NCBI RefSeq assembly: GCF_000724625.1
Contig: NZ_CP007139.1
Location: 1,178,001 to 1,242,000, forward strand
Length of the DNA stretch: 64,000 nt
DNA from: Fimbriimonas ginsengisoli Gsoil 348
GTDB lineage: Bacteria > Armatimonadota > Fimbriimonadia > Fimbriimonadales > Fimbriimonadaceae
Direction of reading: 5' to 3'
Position 1 is the first letter of the stretch; each line of letters opens with the position of its first letter. The position numbers were made by a program, and so were the translations under genes. This document shows, piece by piece, positions 34,804 through 49,495 of the stretch. A model generated the notes under the pieces. It did no database searches. It was given only the letters and a program-made list of their open reading frames with translations, and had not been told where the DNA came from.

Positions 34804-35538
34804 TCACCTCACTTCGACCACTCGGTTCATCGCTGGATAGTTGTCGTGAGAGATGAGCTCGCGACGTGGCCCAGTGATGCGATAGACAGAGACCTCAAAC
34901 CCGGATTTGCCGGTGTTCCGAACCCGACGACGCCCCGAAGGCGCGCCTAAAACGAAGGTCTCGGGGCTCTGGACGTCGTGTACATCGGAGACGACCTCCG
35001 GGCGAATCGCCGGAGCTTGTGGCGCGACAAATCGGATCTCGAGGCGGCTTCCCGCGATCGTCCCCTCGATTCGCACCGGATACGAATAAGGGTTGGTGAA
35101 CCGCAGGTCGATATTCGAAAACGCCACCGCGGCGTCGCGCCCCGGCGGCACGTACGAGGGTTGGAACCGGTGCCGGTTCCGCTCCACAATCCGCATTCCC
35201 GCGAGGAGGGCCGCGTTATACAAAGTCGTGCTCGTCTGGCAAACCCCGCCGCCCCAGTCGTCGATAAGCTGGCCGTTGTAGCTCACCGGCGCCTTTCGAT
35301 ATCCCTGATCTCGGGAGAACGTTCCGACCCGCTGGTTGAACGAGAAGGTCGCCCCCGTCGGAATCTCCGCCCCCACAAGCCGGCTCAGGGAAAGTTGTGC
35401 GTTATGTCGTTGCGACGTGCTCCGCTCCGCGAGCGAGGTGGAGTACGCGCCGAGGGTCGCCTCACGCGGCACCGCACAGATGGCCAAACCTCCGCCGGCT
35501 ACCGCGAGCATCGCGAAGACCGCGCTCCAGGCCCTCAC
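34804..35538 (-). CDS. VanW family protein, exported
   Basis: 244 residues from GTG 35538, which overlaps the alpha-2-macroglobulin stop as GTGA. A frame open further upstream runs into that gene and is not used. Signal/anchor segment VFAMLAVAGGGLAICAV, then the VanW domain: TGATFSFNQRVGTFSRDQGY, GGGVCQTSTTLYNAALLAGM (the family signature), ERNRHRFQPSYVPPGRDAAV and FTNPYSYPVRIEG. VanW is known from glycopeptide-resistance clusters; its action on the cell envelope is unresolved. Here it is tied to an A2M gene, not to van genes. Confidence 0.9.
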   Translation of the reverse strand: MRAWSAVFAMLAVAGGGLAICAVPREATLGAYSTSLAERSTSQRHNAQLSLSRLVGAEIPTGATFSFNQRVGTFSRDQGYRKAPVSYNGQLIDDWGGGVCQTSTTLYNAALLAGMRIVERNRHRFQPSYVPPGRDAAVAFSNIDLRFTNPYSYPVRIEGTIAGSRLEIRFVAPQAPAIRPEVVSDVHDVQSPETFVLGAPSGRRRVRNTGKSGFEVSVYRITGPRRELISHDNYPAMNRVVEVR

Positions 35539-38500
35539 TTTGCCACCTCCAACGTCGCCTCGGCGGTGGAAGCAGAGGTTGCCGGGTCGTACATATTCGC
35601 GGCCCTCGTCGGAAGCACCCGCACCCGGCCCGCCTGCTCCGCGCGCATCGTGTAGGAGATCTTGCTCACCCCCTTCGGCACCCAGGTCGCGAAGAACGCA
35701 ATACGGTCGTCGCGGATTACGGTGCGAGACCACCAGTAACCCCACTCCTCGTACTGCCCGATCGCGTCCCGCTCTTGCACCCGGCACGAGCTCGGCGTCG
35801 GCTCCTCGATCATTACGAACTGCCGGGGAACGTCGCTGTTCACCACCAATTCCACTCTGACGAGCTCGCCCGACCTAAAGCTATCCACCGGCGTTGGGCT
35901 CGGCAGAAGCTTCATCGTTCCATTCTCGAGCCGGCGCGGTTCGAGCCGGTAGTAGCGCCGCTCGATCTTCAGTCCCGGATCGGTAGATTCGGCTTGGAGC
36001 ACCGGAGGAGCGTCGAACTGCCTCAGCTCCGTCGAGTAATAGCACGCCCCATCCCCCACCTTTTGGATCTCGATGCGCGCTTCGCTCCCCAGCTGGGCGC
36101 GGGGAATCTCGATCGTGCGGCTCTTGTCGTCGAGCACCCGCGGATCGAGCGAAACGGTGCCTACGACCTTCCCGTTCACGCGTACGGTGGCGGTCGCATT
36201 TCCGTTCAGCTCCTTCGTGTGAGAGAGGTAAGCGGTGAGGCCGACCAGCGAGTACGAAGTGTCGCGAGTCGACTCCCACATGTCTCCCTTGCGCGTGGTC
36301 ATCAGGTGTCGCACGATGCGAGGGACGATCGGGTCCTCCGGCCGAATCGTCTCAAACGCCACCAGCGTCAGCGCCGTCGGCTCCGCCCCCCAGGCATCGT
36401 CTTCCGGAGGCCAGTACGCTACCCCCTCGCTCCCCTGGGCGGACTTCACCAACAAGCCAAGCGCGGCGTCGGCCCGTGCCGCATCGCCCGCTTCGTGGAA
36501 TGCCAACGCCGCGTTGGCAAGCGCGTCGGGCGAGAGCTTGGCGAGGTCGACCGACTTCAGGTAATTCGCCGCCTCCTGTTTGCCATGCCGGAGCAGGGCG
36601 TAGGCGAGGTAGATCTTGTCGCGAACCCGGTCGTCCTTCCCCTTCGCGGTCTTCAGCCGTTCCATTCCCCAGTTCAGGGTTTGGGTGAGGTCGAGATTCG
36701 TGTCGTACCCCGCACGCTTGGCGCGGTCCAAGCCATCCAGCACCAGCGCGGTCATGAACGGGTTCGACTCGTCGTATTCCCACCAACCCCATCCGCCGTC
36801 GCCGTGCTTCATGTACTCCAGTCTCGCTACCGAATCGCGGACGATACGGGGCAGGTCGCGAAGCTTTTCCGGCTCGGGCAACCCGAGATCCTTTATGGTT
36901 CGGGCGGCGAGCACGCTCGGCAGGAACCGGCTCATCGTTTGCTCGGTGCATCCATAGGGGAAGCCGATCAGACGGTCGAGGGTGCCGACCAAGTCTCCGG
37001 CCAGCGTGGGGCTGAGGGTGATCTTCAGCGACCCCGCTTTGGGATCGGCGGTCGGAAGGATCGGAAGCGTAAAGTCGGCATTCCCTTCGCCCGCCTTCGC
37101 GTTCAGTACCGGCCGGCCGTGCGCGGCGATCGGGAACGATTGCCGCACCCCATCGTTCGGCCCCTGGTCGATCCACGCCCGCGCGGTGACGGCCGCTACG
37201 CCGGCCGGACCGGCGGTGACATCGAATTCGACCGTCTGCGGTTTCCCGTTCGGTACGTGGACTCTCTGCTGCCCGGCGTTTGCCACGACAAGTCCTTCCG
37301 CGGTGATGTTCAGGTTGACGTCTTGATCCTGCCCGGTGTCGTTGGCGACGACCACCGTCATCCGCTGCCGGTCGCCGTCGACCAGGTACTGCGGAAGTTG
37401 CAGCCGCACCATCAGCTCCTTCCGAGCCCGGAAGGTGTGCGTCGTCATCCCCACGTCGGTAGCGTCGCTAACCCCGACGGCGGTCACTCGCCACTCGGTG
37501 AGGTTGTCCGGCAACGGTACCGGAACCGTCGCTTCGCCTCGGGCGCCGGTCCAAACCGTTGGCAGCCACCCTGCGGTGTCCTTGAACTTGGTTCGAAGCG
37601 GAACCTTGGAACTCCCCTTATCCCCGCCGTCGAGGTAGATCTCGGGGAACGAGTACGACGTGACCACCCCCTCCGACCGGTCAGGGTAAAGCGCTTCCCG
37701 GATGTTCGTGGCATCTTGCGCGATCGCATAAATCCCTTCGTCCACCACCCCTAGCGAAACCTCGGCCGCCTTGGGTCGGCCCTGGCTATCGAACGTCCGA
37801 ACCGTGACGCGGGCGGTATCCCCGGGCTTATACACATCCCGATCGCTCTTCACCTCCACCCGCAGGTCGTGATCGTTTCGCGCCACCTTCAAGCGCTTGT
37901 CGGCCTCCAAGAATTTTTTGTTCTTGATGTAGGCGACCGAGACCCACACGTTAGGCGCGTAGTCTTTGACGATCGGAACCGTGACGAGCGTGCTCGACGA
38001 CGTGACTGGAATCACCTTGCGCCAGAGCACTCCTTGGCCCTGGACGCAAACCAGCGCCGATCCGCCGGGGAGATCCGTCTGAATCAAAACTCGGGCGTTC
38101 GACCCCGCCGAGTACTCGCGGTGGTCGAGAGTTACGGCAAGGCTCCCCTTCAGCCGCTCCGCCATTGCCGGCGACCCTTCCACGTAAGCCGAAGCCTCCG
38201 CCACCACTTCGCGCCCCGCCGCGTCTCGCGACGTAGCCCGGAAGGTCAGCGAATCCGCTTTGTCGACCGGAATTCGAAGGTGGGCTGTACCGTCCGCCCC
38301 CGTGGTCGCCTGAAGCTTCTCTCGCGGAACGAACACGGATTCATCCTTTGTCCAGACCTCGCGCCCCACTTCCACCGTCACCATATGGTTCGGCGATGGC
38401 AGATCACGCTTGACCGCGTCCGTCGTTTTCAGGAGGAGATCGACAGTCTCGCCGGGCTGAATGATCGGGTTCTGAACCTCCAAAGTGAGGTCGTGGTCCC

Positions 38501-40175
38501 CTCGGACGACGCGCACCTCGCCCTGGCCGTCGAAGTACTTGCCCCCTTCCTCCGTTACCGACGCGCTGACGTTATAAACGTAGTCGTTGGTGAAGAAGCT
38601 CGGGTCTCCCTCGACCCGGGTCGGGAATTCGATATGGGCGCGCCCACTGGCGTCGGTCACCGCATCGATTTGCTCGGAATACTCTCCCGCTCCGCTACTC
38701 GTGATCCCGGCTTCCTCCCCCTCTCCTTCGTATTGCCATGCCGGCGACCGAAAGACGCTAACCTTCACCTTCGCTCCGACCACGGGGCCGCCGTAGTAAT
38801 AGCGGCACTCGATCGCCGCCGCCGCGGTGTCTCCCATCACGTAATACGACCGGTCCGAAGTGACTTCGACCGAATACTCCGGCTTTCGGTAAGCCACGAC
38901 GTTGGCGTAGATCCCACTGCTTTCGGCGCCGAACGCCTTGCACTTGACATCGTAGCCTCCCGGTTTGCTTTCCGGACTGGTGGTGAACGACCCGTGGAAG
39001 GTGCCGTGCTCGGAGATCGGCAGCGACATCGTTTGAATCGGATTGCCGTCCGGATCCTGGATCGTCACCGAGGTTGTCCCGGCTCCGGGAAGGAGATACC
39101 CGTCCTTCGAAATCCTGCGGACGATCCCTTTGAACTGGATCTCGTCGCCCGGCCGATAGGCGGGGCGCTCGCAATAGCCGACGATGCGGACGTTCTCTTG
39201 GTTTGCGCGCTCGTCGAAGAACCCGACGAGGGCGATCGACTTCCCTTGCCGAGCGACCAGAACCGCTCGATTCTCCTTTCCGGGAGGGAGCGCGACTTCC
39301 GTGGACCCTTGCGCGTCCGTCTTCCCAAGGCTCTCGAGCGAGCTCTTTCCTTGCCCGAGGATCTCTACCCCGCTCGCCGGCTGGCCCGAAGCCAAACCGG
39401 TCGTATAACAGACGGCGCGGCCCCGGAACGACTTGGTGACGAGCGCTAGATTCGAAACGTTGATCGCGGTGCTCGCCCGCTTATCCCCCGCCGTGCAGGT
39501 GATGAAGTAGAAACCTTCCGCGAGCTTGCCGACGGTGAGAGGTTCGATAAATGCGCCTTCGGCGTCGCGCTTGACGATGCGATGCGAGAGGTCTGCGACC
39601 CGCTCGCCAGCTTCGTAGAGATGGCGAACGTCCCCCGCGTTCGGGCCGGCAAGGGGAGATAGCGTTTCCTGCAGTCCGCCTTTGGCCGCGATTTTCGCGA
39701 CATCCAGACGGTAAACCGCGATTTTGACTTCGTCGGACCGGACGAACCCCTGGAGCTCGATCTTCGGCGTTTCGTCCGGGGTGAACACCCGCTGACTCGC
39801 GTAAAGGCTCAGGTGCGGATCGTTGGGCGTTGCTTCGAGCGAGAGCGTTTGGACCTTTCCCTCCTCAACCATCACCACTTGGCGCTTCAGGTGGTGCTCA
39901 TTCGCGGAGATATCGAGGTTGTAAGGGCCGGCCGGCAGCGGCGGAAACGCGAAGGTACCGTCGGCTTTCGTCTCCACCCCTTTTGCGCGTGGCCGCTCCT
40001 CTTCGGGAGCCCCAATCAGGCTCAACGTAACCACCGCGTCGGCCAGCGGCTTGCCGTTTTCCTTCATCGTTAGGTGGCCGGAGACCCGGCCCACCGGGAC
40101 CTCTTCCGTTACTCCGTAACTCAGCAGGACTCCGCAGAATAACGCGCCGATCAAAAGTCCAACCGCTCGTTTCAT
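35535..40175 (-). CDS. Bacterial alpha-2-macroglobulin with thioester domain
   Basis: 1546 residues. An N-terminal signal segment (AVGLLIGALFCGVLLSYG) without a clear lipobox; a carboxypeptidase-regulatory-like beta domain (GRVSGHLTMKENGKPLADAVVTL) at 28-105; then macroglobulin repeats (RPAYRPGDEIQFKGIVR, YVMGDTAAAAIECRYYYGGP, DRDVYKPGDTARVTVRT). The thioester sits in FPYGCTEQTMSRFLP with Cys near residue 1076, inside an alpha/alpha toroid thiol-ester domain. The C-terminal receptor-binding-like domain follows. Such proteins trap proteases at the cell surface. No penicillin-binding protein 1C partner is nearby. Overlaps the upstream membrane-protein stop (ATGA) and the downstream VanW start (GTGA). 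Confidence 0.94.
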   Translation of the reverse strand: MKRAVGLLIGALFCGVLLSYGVTEEVPVGRVSGHLTMKENGKPLADAVVTLSLIGAPEEERPRAKGVETKADGTFAFPPLPAGPYNLDISANEHHLKRQVVMVEEGKVQTLSLEATPNDPHLSLYASQRVFTPDETPKIELQGFVRSDEVKIAVYRLDVAKIAAKGGLQETLSPLAGPNAGDVRHLYEAGERVADLSHRIVKRDAEGAFIEPLTVGKLAEGFYFITCTAGDKRASTAINVSNLALVTKSFRGRAVCYTTGLASGQPASGVEILGQGKSSLESLGKTDAQGSTEVALPPGKENRAVLVARQGKSIALVGFFDERANQENVRIVGYCERPAYRPGDEIQFKGIVRRISKDGYLLPGAGTTSVTIQDPDGNPIQTMSLPISEHGTFHGSFTTSPESKPGGYDVKCKAFGAESSGIYANVVAYRKPEYSVEVTSDRSYYVMGDTAAAAIECRYYYGGPVVGAKVKVSVFRSPAWQYEGEGEEAGITSSGAGEYSEQIDAVTDASGRAHIEFPTRVEGDPSFFTNDYVYNVSASVTEEGGKYFDGQGEVRVVRGDHDLTLEVQNPIIQPGETVDLLLKTTDAVKRDLPSPNHMVTVEVGREVWTKDESVFVPREKLQATTGADGTAHLRIPVDKADSLTFRATSRDAAGREVVAEASAYVEGSPAMAERLKGSLAVTLDHREYSAGSNARVLIQTDLPGGSALVCVQGQGVLWRKVIPVTSSSTLVTVPIVKDYAPNVWVSVAYIKNKKFLEADKRLKVARNDHDLRVEVKSDRDVYKPGDTARVTVRTFDSQGRPKAAEVSLGVVDEGIYAIAQDATNIREALYPDRSEGVVTSYSFPEIYLDGGDKGSSKVPLRTKFKDTAGWLPTVWTGARGEATVPVPLPDNLTEWRVTAVGVSDATDVGMTTHTFRARKELMVRLQLPQYLVDGDRQRMTVVVANDTGQDQDVNLNITAEGLVVANAGQQRVHVPNGKPQTVEFDVTAGPAGVAAVTARAWIDQGPNDGVRQSFPIAAHGRPVLNAKAGEGNADFTLPILPTADPKAGSLKITLSPTLAGDLVGTLDRLIGFPYGCTEQTMSRFLPSVLAARTIKDLGLPEPEKLRDLPRIVRDSVARLEYMKHGDGGWGWWEYDESNPFMTALVLDGLDRAKRAGYDTNLDLTQTLNWGMERLKTAKGKDDRVRDKIYLAYALLRHGKQEAANYLKSVDLAKLSPDALANAALAFHEAGDAARADAALGLLVKSAQGSEGVAYWPPEDDAWGAEPTALTLVAFETIRPEDPIVPRIVRHLMTTRKGDMWESTRDTSYSLVGLTAYLSHTKELNGNATATVRVNGKVVGTVSLDPRVLDDKSRTIEIPRAQLGSEARIEIQKVGDGACYYSTELRQFDAPPVLQAESTDPGLKIERRYYRLEPRRLENGTMKLLPSPTPVDSFRSGELVRVELVVNSDVPRQFVMIEEPTPSSCRVQERDAIGQYEEWGYWWSRTVIRDDRIAFFATWVPKGVSKISYTMRAEQAGRVRVLPTRAANMYDPATSASTAEATLEVAK

Positions 40176-44349: not shown

Positions 44350-45183
44350 ATGAAAGAGTCCGCACTGCAGCATCTTCTCACCGACGGAGAAAGGCATACC
44401 TTCGAGACGACCGGTTTGCTGGTGGTAGAAGATGCCCTCTCGCCACAACAGGTGGCCGAATTAACGCAGGCGACGGATCGGATCTACGCCGCGCGGTTAG
44501 CGTCGGGCGGCGATCCGAAAGCCGCGCTCTTTCATCCAAACTTTATCCCGGACGACCCGCTCTTCCAGGAGCTCGTCGACTACGACCGGGTGCTTCCAAA
44601 GGTTTGGGGCATCCTTGGCTGGAACATCTATCTCTATCACGCCCACCTGATCGTGACCCCGCCCACCGGCCAGGCTCCCGACAATAAGACGTTCGGCTGG
44701 CATCAGGACAGCGGGCGCGTGAACCGCGAAATCGAAACCCACCCGCGTCCTCGGCTATCACTTAAAGTCGCTTACTTCCTATCGGATGTAAGCATGGAGG
44801 GGCGCGGTAATTTCTGGGTCGTCCCCGGCAGTCAGTTATCCGATTCGCTCCCGATGCCGCCGGACGGAGTCGGACAACCGGACGGAGCCGTTCCGGTGCT
44901 CGTCAAGGCGGGATCGGCGGTGCTGTTCGATCGGCGGCTTTGGCACACCGCGAGCCCAAACTGGTCGGACGTCACGCGCAAGGTTCTGTTCTACGGATAC
45001 GGTTACCGGTGGATCCGCACCAAGGACGACATGACCGTCCAAAGTCTCTGGCCCAATTGCGATCCGATCCGAAAGCAGCTTCTCGGCTTCGGTGAGACGT
45101 GCAACGGGTTCTACACACCGCAAGACGCCGACGTGCCGCTACGGGTTTGGCTCCGGGAGCACAGCCCCGGCGAGGCGGAGTAG
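44350..45183 (+). CDS. Phytanoyl-CoA dioxygenase family protein (first of two)
   Basis: 277 residues. Fe(II)/2-oxoglutarate site: H-x-D in FGWHQDSGR near residue 117, distal His in LWHTASPN near 199 and the 2-oxoglutarate-binding Arg in the segment VTRKVLFYGYGYRW just after. Flanking strands (LLVVEDALSPQQVAEL, GRGNFWVVPGSQL) fit PhyH. Bacterial members hydroxylate varied small molecules; the substrate is open. A paralogue, diverged, lies at 48488. A terminator follows. Confidence 0.88.
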   Translation: MKESALQHLLTDGERHTFETTGLLVVEDALSPQQVAELTQATDRIYAARLASGGDPKAALFHPNFIPDDPLFQELVDYDRVLPKVWGILGWNIYLYHAHLIVTPPTGQAPDNKTFGWHQDSGRVNREIETHPRPRLSLKVAYFLSDVSMEGRGNFWVVPGSQLSDSLPMPPDGVGQPDGAVPVLVKAGSAVLFDRRLWHTASPNWSDVTRKVLFYGYGYRWIRTKDDMTVQSLWPNCDPIRKQLLGFGETCNGFYTPQDADVPLRVWLREHSPGEAE

Positions 45184-45332: not shown

Positions 45333-46997
45333 ATGACGAAACCGGTATTGCTTGCGGTGGATGATGACGCCGAGGTGCTGCGGGCGGTGCAGCGGGACCT
45401 CCGAGGTGCTTTTGCGGATCGGCTGAGGATCGTGGGAGCTGGATCGGGCGCAGCCGCGCTGGAAGTGGTACGGCAACTGAAGGAGCGGAACGAGGCTCTG
45501 GCGCTGATGCTGGTGGACCAAAAGATGCCGGGCATGACCGGCGTCGAGTTCGTCGAGCAAGCCCTCGATCACTTTCCGACCGCCAAGAAGGTTCTGCTCA
45601 CCGCGTATGCCGACACCGACGCGGCAATAAGGGCGATTAACGGCGCGCGGATCGACTACTACCTGCTGAAGCCCTGGGACCCGCCGGAGGAAAAGCTCTT
45701 CCCGGTGGTCGAGGATCTGCTGTGCGACTGGTTTGCCGATTACACTCCTCCGTTCGAGGGGATCCGTGTGTACGGGCACCGCTATTCGCCGGAGTCGCAC
45801 GCGGTGAAGAACTTCCTGGCCCGAAATCAGATCCCGTACCAGTGGTTCGATGTGGAGGCGCAGAAGGACGATCCCGAGGTGCGGAAGGTGATCGAGTCGG
45901 CGCCCGGGAAGTTCCCGCTTGTAACGCTGCCCGACAACGGTCCGTGCCTGGAAATGCCGACCCCCGCGCAGCTAGGCGAACGGCTCGGCCTCAAGACGCA
46001 CGTGGAGCGTCCGTTCTACGACCTCGCCATCGTCGGCGCCGGACCGGCAGGATTGGCGGCGGCAGTCTACGGAGCATCGGAAGGGTTGCAGACGGTAGTC
46101 GTCGAGCGCGAGGCGCCCGGAGGCCAGGCCGGGTCGAGTTCCCTGATCGAGAATTACCTTGGCTTCCCTACCGGTCTTTCGGGAGCCGATCTCGCCCGCC
46201 GCGCCCGCGATCAGGCGATCCGGTTCGGTGTTGAGATGCTCACCCCGTCCGAAGCCACGAAGTTGGAGGCGCGAGATGGTTACCGGGTCCTTCACCTCGC
46301 GGATGGACAAGAGATCGTGGCGCACGCGGTGATCCTTGCGATGGGGGTTTCCTACAAGCGGCTGAACGTGGCCGGAGAGGAAAATCTCTTCGGGAAAGGG
46401 GTCTATTACGGCGCCGCGCTCACGGAGGCGATCAACTGCCGCGACGAGGAAGTTTGCATTGTGGGAGGCGCAAATTCCGCCGGACAGGCGGCGATGCATT
46501 TCGCTCGCTACGCGGGAAAAGTGACGATGCTGGTGCGCGGAGACTCGTTGGACAAGGCGATGTCGCAGTATCTCGTCGATCGAATCGGAAAGACCCCCAA
46601 CATCGAGGTCAGGCTGAAGAGCCAGGTTAAGGAGATGATCGGCAACGGCCGGCTTGAGAAGGTCCGGATCGAGGGCCCCAAAGGGGAGGACGTGATCTCG
46701 GTTAGCTCGATCTTTATCTTCATCGGCGCGGAGCCGCTGACCGATTGGCTCGACGGCACCATCGTCCGCGACCAACGTGGTTTCATTCCCACCGGCCCCG
46801 AGCTGTTGGAAATCCCCGAGGGTAAGGAGCGATGGACCGAGAAGCGCCCTCCTTCCCTTCTTGAGACTTCCATGCCGGGGGTTTTTGCGGCGGGCGACGT
46901 CCGATCTGGGTCGGTAAAGCGGGTGGCGAGCAGTGTGGGGCAAGGAAGTATCGCGGTCCAAATCGTCCACGAGTACCTGCGAGAGGTGCGGGCGTGA
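45333..46997 (+). CDS. Receiver / glutaredoxin-like / thioredoxin-reductase-like fusion without CxxC
   Basis: 554 residues in three parts. 1-130: response-regulator receiver (LAVDDDAEVLRAVQ, phospho-acceptor Asp 62 in MLVDQKMPG, TAYAD, Lys in LLKPWD). 140-220: a glutaredoxin/GST-N-like fold (IRVYGHRYSPESHAVKNFLA) with Ser in place of the redox Cys. 225-554: FAD/NAD(P) thioredoxin-reductase fold (DLAIVGAGPAGLAAAVYGA, EREAPGGQAGSSSLIENYLGFP, EVCIVGGANSAGQAAMHF, GVFAAGDV). The usual CAxC active site is missing: the segment reads GVYYGAALTEAINC. So it probably does not reduce thioredoxin by dithiol exchange. GTGA-coupled to a CNB-histidine kinase. Confidence 0.88.
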   Translation: MTKPVLLAVDDDAEVLRAVQRDLRGAFADRLRIVGAGSGAAALEVVRQLKERNEALALMLVDQKMPGMTGVEFVEQALDHFPTAKKVLLTAYADTDAAIRAINGARIDYYLLKPWDPPEEKLFPVVEDLLCDWFADYTPPFEGIRVYGHRYSPESHAVKNFLARNQIPYQWFDVEAQKDDPEVRKVIESAPGKFPLVTLPDNGPCLEMPTPAQLGERLGLKTHVERPFYDLAIVGAGPAGLAAAVYGASEGLQTVVVEREAPGGQAGSSSLIENYLGFPTGLSGADLARRARDQAIRFGVEMLTPSEATKLEARDGYRVLHLADGQEIVAHAVILAMGVSYKRLNVAGEENLFGKGVYYGAALTEAINCRDEEVCIVGGANSAGQAAMHFARYAGKVTMLVRGDSLDKAMSQYLVDRIGKTPNIEVRLKSQVKEMIGNGRLEKVRIEGPKGEDVISVSSIFIFIGAEPLTDWLDGTIVRDQRGFIPTGPELLEIPEGKERWTEKRPPSLLETSMPGVFAAGDVRSGSVKRVASSVGQGSIAVQIVHEYLREVRA

Positions 46998-48367
46998 GGC
47001 GGCAGGAGCATCTCTTTCCGGTATTAACGGAAGAGCAGATCCAGTGCTTGGAGCCGTTCGGCGACATCGTGGAAGTGCCGCCGGGCGGAGAGATCTTCCG
47101 CGAGAAGGAGCGGTCGGACAGCTTCTTCGTCCTACTGGAAGGGGAGATCAAGATCACCCGTCAGGTGAATGGGCAGGAGCTCTTCATCGTCAACCACGGC
47201 CCGGGCGAATTCACCGGCGAACTCTCGGTGCTCACCCATGGCGAAAACCTGGCGACCGGCACCGCGCTCGAGCCAAGCCGTCTACTCAAGATCGACTTCT
47301 TCTGTGCGATGCACACCGTCTCCGGCGCATGCCCGGAGCTGATGGCGATCGTGATTCCCGCCCTGGCCCAACGGAGGCCGGAGGCCATGACGCTCGACAA
47401 TCAGCGAGCCAAGCTCGCCTCACTCGGCGTGCTCGCCGCAGGTTTGGCCCACGAGCTGAATAACCCGGCCTCCGCGGCCCGCCGCTCGGCCGCGCACATG
47501 CGCGAACGTCTGGGAGCCCAACGAGAGGCTGCGATTCGGCTTTGCGAACATGGTGTCGGGCCGGACGGCCTGCACGCTCTGCAAAAGGTGCTCCACGAGA
47601 TGGCGGAAAGGCCCCCGGTGGAATTGGGGCCACTTGAGCGAAGTGACCGGGAAACCGAGATTGGCGACCGCCTGACGGAGCTTGGAGTACCCGATCCCTG
47701 GGAAGTGGCGTCGGCGCTGGTCGAGGCGGGATTCGCACGGGCGGATGTCGACGCACTCGGACTCGCGCTCCCATGCGACGCGGTGAAGGTTGGACTCGAC
47801 TGGTTGGCGAACGCGCTGATCGTCCAGTCTCTTTCGCGGGAGATCGAGACCTCGACCGGACGGATCGCCGACCTCGTGTCGTCGATCAAAGGATATTCGG
47901 CGATGGATCAGGCGTCGGTGCAGAACGTCGACGTTCGTCCCGGGCTCGAAGACACCCTCACCATGCTGGGTCACAAGATCCGGCGTAAGGAAATCCGAGT
48001 GGTGAAGGAGTTCGCGCCGGATACACCGGTTATCAATGCGATCCCTGGCGAGCTGAACCAGGTTTGGACCAACCTTATCGACAACGCGGTAGACGCCATG
48101 GCGAACGGAGGCACTCTTAAGGTTCGTACCGAAGCAGAGGGAGATTGTCTGTTGGTCGAGATCGAGGATAACGGTTCGGGAATTCCAGAAGAGATCCGCG
48201 ACCGGATTTTCGATCCGTTCTTCACGACCAAGCCGGTGGGCGAAGGAACGGGACTGGGGCTCGACATCGCCTATAAAATCGTGACCGACCACCACGATGG
48301 AGACATTCGCGTGGACTCGGAGCCGGGGCGAACGGTGTTTCAGATTCGACTACCGGACGGTAGTTAG
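46994..48367 (+). CDS. Cyclic-nucleotide-binding-domain histidine kinase
   Basis: 457 residues, soluble. 10-115: CNB/Crp-like beta-roll ([35 protein letters not shown]); the Arg that binds cNMP phosphate in Crp aligns with Asn ([11 protein letters not shown]), so ligand binding may differ. About 140-290: dimerisation helices with H-box [20 protein letters not shown], phospho-acceptor His 153. 330-455: HATPase with [39 protein letters not shown]. Start GTG 46994 overlaps the previous stop. The obvious partner is the receiver of the gene in front: an inverted pair, receiver on a flavoprotein, kinase on a CNB sensor. Confidence 0.9.
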
Positions 48368-48487
48368 CTTCCGCGCAATGGGATCCGGTGGATCGCTGGT
48401 CTCCAGACCGGCCTCCGGACCATCGGCGAGGACGCCGACGCTACCATTCCAGGTGCGACGTTGCACAATGGAGTAGGAGACTCGAAG

Positions 48488-49495
48488 ATGAGCATTGCCG
48501 CCGCTACCCATCCTTGGCTTGGCATCGAGCCGTATCGCGTAAGCGTCGACCAGTACCGGGCGTTTCGGCGCGATGGGTTCCTTGTCGTTCGCGGAGTCGT
48601 CTTACCGGAACACGTGCGCGAGCTCGCGCAGCACTGCGACGATCTGCTCGCGGACCGGGTCGACGTCAGCGAGTTCGTGTACATCCCGCCGGGGCCGAGG
48701 CCCAGCACGCGCGATCTGCTCCACCGGATCCATATGGGGCACCAGAAGATCGAGCTTTGGGAGCGATACCTGCTCTATCCGCGGGTGCTCGACCTGGTCT
48801 CGGCGTTGATCGGGCCGGACGTGGCGGCGATGCAGACGATGCTGTTTACCAAGGCGCCGGGGGCCAATGGGCAGGGTTTCCACCAGGATAGCTACTACAT
48901 TCCGACCTTCCCGGACACGCTCATCGGGGCTTGGATCGCAATCGACAAGGCAGATGTCGAGAACGGATGTCTATGGATGTCGCCCGGAAGCGGGAACGAG
49001 CCGATCTATCCGCCTGAAAACGGATACGGGTATGGAAACACGGATTTGGAGGGGATTCCGAGCGTGCGGAACGTGGGTGGATACGCGAACGACGACGACG
49101 ATCCCCTCAACACGCTAAAGCCGATCGCCGAGCGGTACAAGGCGGTGGAGATTCCAGCCGAAATGGAGCCGGGCGACGTGGCGTTTTTCGGCGGGCACGT
49201 GCTGCACCGATCGCTTAAGAACCGAAGCGAGACCCGGTTCCGCCGGAGCTTCGTCAACCACTATTGCAACGCCCGGAGCTTTACCACTTGGGGCGGCGGA
49301 AACAAGGAGCAGATTTTGGCGCGGGGAAACACCCACCTGGAATTCGGCCTCCCCCGGTTCGGCACCCCCTGCGCGGCGACCGATCCCGAGCGTTGCTCGG
49401 TCAGCGACTCCGGCATGGTCCACACCATGATGATGGCCACTCCGGACGGGATGATGACGGCCCAAGAGCCGGGCAAAGAGGATCACGACGAGTAG
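48488..49495 (+). CDS. Phytanoyl-CoA dioxygenase family protein (second)
   Basis: 335 residues from ATG 48488 with AGGAG at 48475-48479. PhyH-type site: H-x-D in QGFHQDSYY near residue 136, distal His in GGHVLHRSLKNRS near 240 and Arg in FRRSFVNHYC. TTG 48461 is a less likely start. The C-terminal 60 residues, Met/Asp rich, are variable. Clearly related to the enzyme at 44350 but with a different flanking set of loops. Substrate unknown. Converges on the MocR-like gene with an 18-nt gap. Confidence 0.88.
   Translation: MSIAAATHPWLGIEPYRVSVDQYRAFRRDGFLVVRGVVLPEHVRELAQHCDDLLADRVDVSEFVYIPPGPRPSTRDLLHRIHMGHQKIELWERYLLYPRVLDLVSALIGPDVAAMQTMLFTKAPGANGQGFHQDSYYIPTFPDTLIGAWIAIDKADVENGCLWMSPGSGNEPIYPPENGYGYGNTDLEGIPSVRNVGGYANDDDDPLNTLKPIAERYKAVEIPAEMEPGDVAFFGGHVLHRSLKNRSETRFRRSFVNHYCNARSFTTWGGGNKEQILARGNTHLEFGLPRFGTPCAATDPERCSVSDSGMVHTMMMATPDGMMTAQEPGKEDHDE

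Follow-up and report, generated by a model that had tools for sequence, protein, structure and literature searches.

Introduction

Enzymatic response regulators include a class termed TrxB (a P2CS/P2RP label), for which the Streptomyces coelicolor proteins SCO7297 and SCO7298 have been tabulated as a response regulator and histidine kinase pair (PMC9739842); one TrxB regulator has been counted in thermophilic cyanobacteria (PMC9953108), and a 'Mycobacterium-like' combination of a receiver with a thioredoxin reductase (TrxR) has been mentioned (PMC5847659). In this work, we analysed a 64,000-nucleotide stretch of Fimbriimonas ginsengisoli Gsoil 348 (contig NZ_CP007139.1, positions 1,178,001 to 1,242,000; hereafter the window), which carries a gene for a receiver-bearing flavoprotein followed by a gene for a histidine kinase. 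As in SCO7298 and its kinase SCO7297, a receiver is fused to a TrxR-like domain with the kinase encoded alongside. The layout is thus already catalogued and not an orphan, and these entries correct an earlier note on this DNA, whose author could not assign it to a described pathway. The catalogue passages on TrxB hold no function, no remark on missing cysteines, and no glutaredoxin-like part or cyclic nucleotide-binding (CNB) domain.

SCO7298 has also been treated as trxB3, induced by polysulfide (PMC9952706), and is strongly upregulated on acid shock (PMC2631018). In work on thioredoxin reductases of cyanobacteria, the FFTR and DDOR groups are described as bearing a CxxC in common with NTR (PMC9025218). 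No functional study of a receiver-TrxR fusion, of CNB fusions, or of a UBP-type zinc-finger (zf-UBP) protein acting with a TrxR was found in the openly available literature, preprints aside. A further group of relatives is annotated as 'cyclic nucleotide-binding domain-containing thioredoxin-disulfide reductase'; these proteins have the same glutaredoxin-like and cysteine-less TrxR-like output and a similar CNB domain, but in them the CNB is fused to the output, with no receiver and no kinase. Judged by sequence, the product name 'thioredoxin-disulfide reductase' is misleading for this CNB type, since the TrxR CxxC is absent from those aligned.

The domain content of the window pair, its retained phosphotransfer residues, a family-wide loss of cysteines, the pairing of the two genes and a zinc-finger linkage can be read from the sequences themselves.

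Results

A flavoprotein family without redox cysteines

The window flavoprotein has four cysteines (131, 205, 369 and 375) and no CxxC, and its features are the following:

45333..46997, + strand: intact reading frame of 554 aa; receiver, glutaredoxin-like part and cysteine-less TrxR-like flavoprotein
45348..45713, + strand: receiver domain, residues 6-127 (PF00072, 5e-13, match at residues 7-118)
45516-45518, + strand: phospho-acceptor Asp62 of the receiver, invariant in 16/16 aligned proteins
45759..46010, + strand: glutaredoxin-like domain, residues 143-226 (profile against PDB: 2lqo, 5.9e-8; 7c10, 1e-5)
45786-45797, + strand: S152-P-E-S155 in place of the glutaredoxin catalytic CxxC
46014..46991, + strand: TrxR-like FAD/NAD(P) module, residues 228-553 (PF07992, 8e-36, residues 229-538; TIGR01292, 225.7 bits)
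46407-46430, + strand: YGAALTEA in place of the TrxR CxxC (context GVYYGAALTEA)

Both catalytic sites lacked a CxxC in all 29 proteins of an alignment comprising the window protein, 17 other receiver-type proteins, one whose receiver is degenerate and 10 of the CNB type, and in most receiver-type proteins the TrxR position reads [YF]-Y-G-[AS]. The loss extends to forms with a directly fused CNB and to forms without a sensor. As far as these alignments go, the absence of both cysteine pairs throughout the family is the new point here and is not peculiar to the window protein; chance is excluded as its cause because the absence is conserved, and the loss seems to be a stable feature of these proteins rather than the result of decay. 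Relatives encoded on IMG/VR contigs (the viral_contigs set, L104-L133; 30 loci, of which 23 entered alignment A3 together with one receiver stretch of L020) are likewise cysteine-less: none of the 30 has a CxxC at the TrxR site, and most also lack the glutaredoxin part. The majority of these 30 have no sensor domain, and they are counted here with viral and host DNA origins unsorted.

Three other readings were rejected. Decay to a pseudogene does not agree with two intact reading frames and a conserved family; a housekeeping TrxR role is taken in this genome by a separate TrxR with CATC; and a CxxC shifted to another place in the homologues, which the earlier note had named as the finding that would count against it, was seen once among the 29 aligned proteins, as a CVPC that the CNB-type protein L018 has in a variable loop.

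Residues D10, D11, D62 and K113 of the receiver are invariant in the 16 receiver-type proteins, out of 18, that were aligned (alignment A1). The middle domain is an 84-residue glutaredoxin relative, for which a profile built from 20 of 28 linker sequences gave the Mycobacterium tuberculosis glutaredoxin Rv3198.1 (2lqo, E=5.9e-8) as the best PDB match; S-P-x-S aligns opposite both cysteines of WCGYC in this protein, which we take to be the one named mycoredoxin, and both of its active-site cysteines are therefore replaced in the flavoprotein. Taken one by one, 4 of the 20 linker sequences are matched by the Pfam glutaredoxin model. With bacterial TrxR (TIGR01292) the flavoprotein shares the overall fold and the FAD and dinucleotide motifs, but its 225.7 bits stand against a cut-off of 343.45. 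The FAD motif, the GGxNSAGQ dinucleotide motif and Arg402 are conserved across the homologues; Arg402 is the single arginine left of the HRR motif, the other two arginine positions being lost. In TrxR, the arginines of this motif bind the 2'-phosphate of NADPH.

In an AlphaFold model, the glutaredoxin-like (143-217) and TrxR-like parts are confident and the receiver is poor (pLDDT mostly <50) because the input alignment held almost no receivers; the predicted structure was not used for the domain arrangement. The best Foldseek matches of the model were AhpF (4o5q, top) and TrxR. AhpF resembles the flavoprotein in having a thioredoxin-fold part before the TrxR module, although the N-terminal part of AhpF is larger than the one glutaredoxin-like fold found here, the flavoprotein has no CxxC in either part, and it reaches 161.7 bits on TIGR03140, whose cut-off is 502.9.

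A soluble kinase paired with the flavoprotein

The kinase gene lies directly downstream, with these features:

46994..48367, + strand: soluble histidine kinase of 457 aa with a CNB-like sensor; starts with GTG and shares 4 bases with the end of the flavoprotein gene
47006..47377, + strand: CNB-like sensor domain, residues 5-128 (PF00027, 1.3e-15)
47246-47248, + strand: Asn85 at the canonical phosphate-binding Arg position (alignment with the canonical relative L083)
47414..47482, + strand: H-box with His153 (47450-47452), aligned in 19/19 kinases
48050..48358, + strand: HATPase_c catalytic domain, residues 353-455 (PF02518, 9.7e-28)

No transmembrane segment was found in the kinase (best 19-residue hydropathy 1.47). 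The canonical CNB arginine is clear in only one of 18 aligned CNB-bearing kinases (L083), while a second kinase (L040a) has an arginine close to that position; canonical cAMP sensing by the kinase CNB is disfavoured, as the phosphate-binding Arg position is not conserved among the kinases. The Nostoc edaphicum homologue (L046, 9287-10678) has a receiver-like N-terminus in place of the CNB, a case by which the sensor module of the kinase, judged from its sequence, is itself exchangeable. Separately, a second paralogous kinase lies 5' of the flavoprotein in Deinococcus (L040, 1032-2429), Paraburkholderia (L043, 3433-4836) and Caballeronia (L048, 3484-4914).

The description of both proteins in the earlier note was borne out in these respects: the receiver fused in front with an intact Asp62, the retained FAD and NAD(P) sites, YGAALTEA at the CAxC site, a glutaredoxin-like part lacking CxxC (here confirmed by profile), a soluble kinase with a Crp-like sensor whose arginine is replaced by asparagine, and the GTGA overlap of the two genes, whose coordinates and frames were all correct.

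The two genes share a strand and overlap by this GTGA at 46994-46997, and a 4-base overlap of the pair also occurs at plasmid loci of Deinococcus, Caballeronia, Streptomyces and Tsukamurella, giving four phyla with that of the window. A kinase is adjacent or within 2.7 kb for 16 of the 18 receiver-type homologues (the degenerate-receiver protein, L049, being excluded from the 18), and the kinase-linked ones belong to Cyanobacteriota, Deinococcota, Actinomycetota and Pseudomonadota besides the phylum of the window. The same architecture and gene pair thus recur in other genomes, a check that the earlier note had proposed.

Among 72,556 plasmid records searched by tblastn, 134 contain a flavoprotein relative, 12 of them with at least 80% query coverage, and neighbourhoods were inspected in the top 11. 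The first ten relatives are receiver-type with 50-57% identity and come from Nostoc (2), Gloeothece, Deinococcus, Streptomyces, Nonomuraea, Nocardia, Tsukamurella, Paraburkholderia and Caballeronia; all ten records also carry the kinase, adjacent in nine, and in N. edaphicum transposase and bestrophin genes separate kinase and flavoprotein. These ten make up 10 of the 14 kinase-bearing plasmid records.

Within the phylum of the window, the flavoprotein family is present in 23 of 291 genomes and the kinase (query residues 1-290) in seven, six of which are exactly the six with a close receiver-type flavoprotein (6/6 vs 1/285; Fisher p ~9e-12, phylogeny ignored). In the seventh (G214), the kinase lies on a 7.8-kb contig without a flavoprotein. 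A genome_contigs scan with a single-sequence query returned four loci (two receiver-only, one short receiver fragment, and one weak flavoprotein match of 24%), and the distribution given here rests on the phylum search and the named plasmids. Genomics lends good support both to the view of the two proteins as a single two-component unit and to the predicted His-Asp relay. The earlier note had read the two genes as a two-component pair; that pairing is strengthened by gene co-occurrence and invariant residues, and the part that fell is the lack of a described class, given the catalogued TrxB entries.

CNB fusions and the family tree

Among 19 other members of the genus of the window, four have the flavoprotein, and in all four a CNB is fused in front, with no receiver. 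These CNB-type relatives share ~42-50% identity over residues ~140-550. A small local BLAST of the kinase CNB proved non-specific, PDB CNBs scoring alike (up to 45.6 bits), so its link to the CNB-TrxR proteins was retested against all CNB rows in the 291 genomes, with five kinase-family rows (window included) left out and row labels assigned from coordinates. In this retest the fused CNBs score up to 51.4 bits. CNBs of CNB-TrxR proteins filled 10 of the top 14 non-kinase rows (13 such among 52 rows); without the unverified row of G082 they filled nine of 14 (12 such rows; hypergeometric p ~9e-5, ancestry ignored). A similar CNB sensor is thus wired to the same output in two ways, by direct fusion or through a kinase.

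In a tree of the TrxR module, a 13-row set (support 99/94) unites the window protein with receiver-type proteins from other families, from cyanobacteria and from Deinococcus and Paraburkholderia; the CNB-type relatives within its genus fall outside this set. Because it groups with these distant receiver-type proteins and not with its own-genus relatives, the tree suggests lateral transfer of the window flavoprotein. The N-terminal module is swapped between receiver, CNB and none across this tree. The tree includes 20 of the 30 viral_contigs loci and, as outgroup, only two proteins on long branches; it has open forks and does not prove that the cysteines were lost just once.

Linkage to zf-UBP proteins and thiol-related genes

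A UBP-type zinc-finger gene is annotated directly after the kinase in Streptomyces fungicidicus and Tsukamurella, a zf-UBP reading frame follows the kinase in Nocardia (open reading frame search), and a zf-UBP gene adjoins a sensor-less glutaredoxin-TrxR protein in Paraburkholderia dioscoreae. Runs of clpB, trxA, zf-UBP and CNB-TrxR genes occur on Streptomyces angustmyceticus and Rhodococcus plasmids (L058, L062), which suggests a context of protein damage or heat stress. Across the phylum, PF02148 is found in 18 of 291 genomes, namely 13 of the 23 flavoprotein carriers and 5 of the 268 others (p ~6e-13, phylogeny ignored); in control genomes, matches were present in only 2 of 14. On plasmids, where the listings cover 60 of the 134 records with the flavoprotein and 60 of the 87 with zf-UBP, 19 of the 60 flavoprotein records are also among the zf-UBP rows, 18 of them with 51-467 bp between the matched segments (34 of the 60 zf-UBP rows were entered in this comparison; inspection by eye showed that none of the remaining 26 belongs to the 60 records with the flavoprotein).

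One genome of the phylum (G063) has the gene order thioredoxin, two ADH, glutaredoxin (CGYT), histidine kinase, thioredoxin, receiver-glutaredoxin-TrxR, zf-UBP, an FGE-type EgtB-like protein and an EgtD-like protein. The gene following zf-UBP encodes an FGE-domain protein and the next a histidine methyltransferase, which we take to be the domains of the ergothioneine enzymes EgtB and EgtD. These thioredoxin, glutaredoxin, zf-UBP and ergothioneine neighbours argue for a thiol context of the flavoprotein.

Genomic surroundings in the window

The pair lies between two same-strand genes of the PhyH family (phytanoyl-CoA dioxygenase-like; 44350-45183 and 48461-49495); no such gene was seen at the annotated loci of homologous pairs that were inspected. 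A large bacterial alpha-2-macroglobulin-like protein (1546 aa) that contains bait-region and TED domains is encoded at 35535-40175.

Discussion

We read the window pair as a flavin electron donor or sensor that is gated by phosphorylation and acts in thiol stress, and whose thiol partner resides in a separate protein; we hold this leading reading with about even confidence. We infer a phosphotransfer, a conformational effect, actual binding of FAD and dinucleotide, an electron flow, a partner and a signal, as follows. The soluble kinase would sense an intracellular signal through its degenerate CNB-like domain, probably not in the canonical cAMP mode, autophosphorylate on His153 and pass the phosphate to Asp62 of the receiver, and this phosphorylation may alter the conformation of the attached flavoprotein or the access of its partner. 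The flavoprotein, predicted to hold FAD and a dinucleotide with both the TrxR and the glutaredoxin dithiols gone, would send electrons of NAD(P)H directly from FAD to a separate partner docked on the glutaredoxin-like face. Such flavin-direct chemistry is suggested by the YYG motif shared with a protein of the same genome resembling ferredoxin-NADP reductases (FNR). The leading partner candidates are the zf-UBP protein or a free thioredoxin or glutaredoxin, in a response to thiol or sulfur stress. In relatives lacking the kinase, a similar CNB fused directly would exert the control without phosphotransfer.

Several observations weigh against this reading. In the genome of the window, the zf-UBP gene lies ~370 kb from the pair, a link of co-occurrence only, and no thioredoxin or glutaredoxin gene adjoins the pair there, so that the proposed partner is borrowed from relatives. 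The loss of two of the three TrxR arginine positions for the 2'-phosphate of NADPH means that dinucleotide preference and the use of NAD(P)H are not deducible from the sequence. No kinase was found near the deeper receiver-type proteins of G046 and G051, and 4 of the 14 kinase-bearing plasmid records fall outside the set with a close flavoprotein. As for S. coelicolor, SCO7298 is likened to our protein by a catalogue entry, its cysteine-less status being assumed from the S. fungicidicus homologue, and the polysulfide study reports overexpression of trxA, trxA3, trxA4 and trxB, not SCO7298 (PMC9952706). Biochemistry of any family member was not found in the literature searched.

On balance, we favour direct transfer from FAD to a partner over both a pseudoenzyme that only senses redox state and an activity of the FNR-like or oxidase kind. 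A regulatory pseudoenzyme without turnover, in which the redox state of FAD or the occupancy by NAD(P)H would act with the receiver to gate partner binding or feed back on the kinase as a combined redox and phosphorylation sensor, seems to us possible yet doubtful: both dithiols and two arginines for the NADPH phosphate are lost while the nucleotide-binding motifs are kept, and the exchange of the N-terminal module between receiver, CNB and none is typical of a regulated switch, but the flavin site is strongly conserved and the real thioredoxin, glutaredoxin and ergothioneine genes at G063, like trxA in Streptomyces and Rhodococcus, suggest electron flow. That the flavoprotein instead works as a reductase of the FNR or NAD(P)H-oxidase type, its FAD reducing a one-electron carrier or oxygen and its turnover controlled by phosphorylation, we consider quite unlikely. 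TrxR-like FNRs also lack CxxC, and the own-genome FNR-like homologue (L103) reads GIYYGVKD at the same site and has near its C-terminus a motif K..IA.GxGE that resembles KRVASAVGEG of the flavoprotein; yet TrxR and AhpF rank far above FNR in sequence searches, and the chain stops shortly past the GEG motif, apparently without the flavin-stacking C-terminal extension that TrxR-like FNRs carry. A ferredoxin or flavodoxin gene, for which no systematic search was made, was not noticed beside the inspected loci.

It is most improbable that the two proteins are independent, with an incidental adjacency and a receiver that serves other kinases or is a docking relic. The flavoproteins of G046 and G051, the G214 contig, and Paraburkholderia plasmids that carry kinase copies with no close flavoprotein would fit such a view, but the near-perfect co-occurrence of the two genes, the overlap repeated in four phyla and the invariant phosphotransfer residues speak against it.

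Going further, the locus may represent a widespread and undescribed redox module in which a 'naked' TrxR flavoprotein has had its thiol moved to the zf-UBP protein, as electron acceptor or redox switch, with a CNB sensor wired by fusion or by His-Asp phosphotransfer; we put this forward tentatively and regard it as unlikely on present evidence. If true, the combination of a 'naked' TrxR with zf-UBP would amount to a new system for handling disulfides or sulfur and would give a role to bacterial zf-UBP proteins. The family is annotated as thioredoxin reductases, with SCO7298 counted as TrxB3, despite lacking the defining chemistry, and the gene pairing, the CNB fusion and the zinc-finger linkage turn its function into three questions: whether the kinase phosphorylates the flavoprotein, whether this alters the flavin chemistry and whether the zinc-finger protein is the partner. 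For specialists, the interest lies in the loss of cysteines throughout the family, the double wiring of one sensor and the association with the zinc finger, and the pair would exemplify direct control of a redox enzyme, rather than of transcription, by a two-component system.

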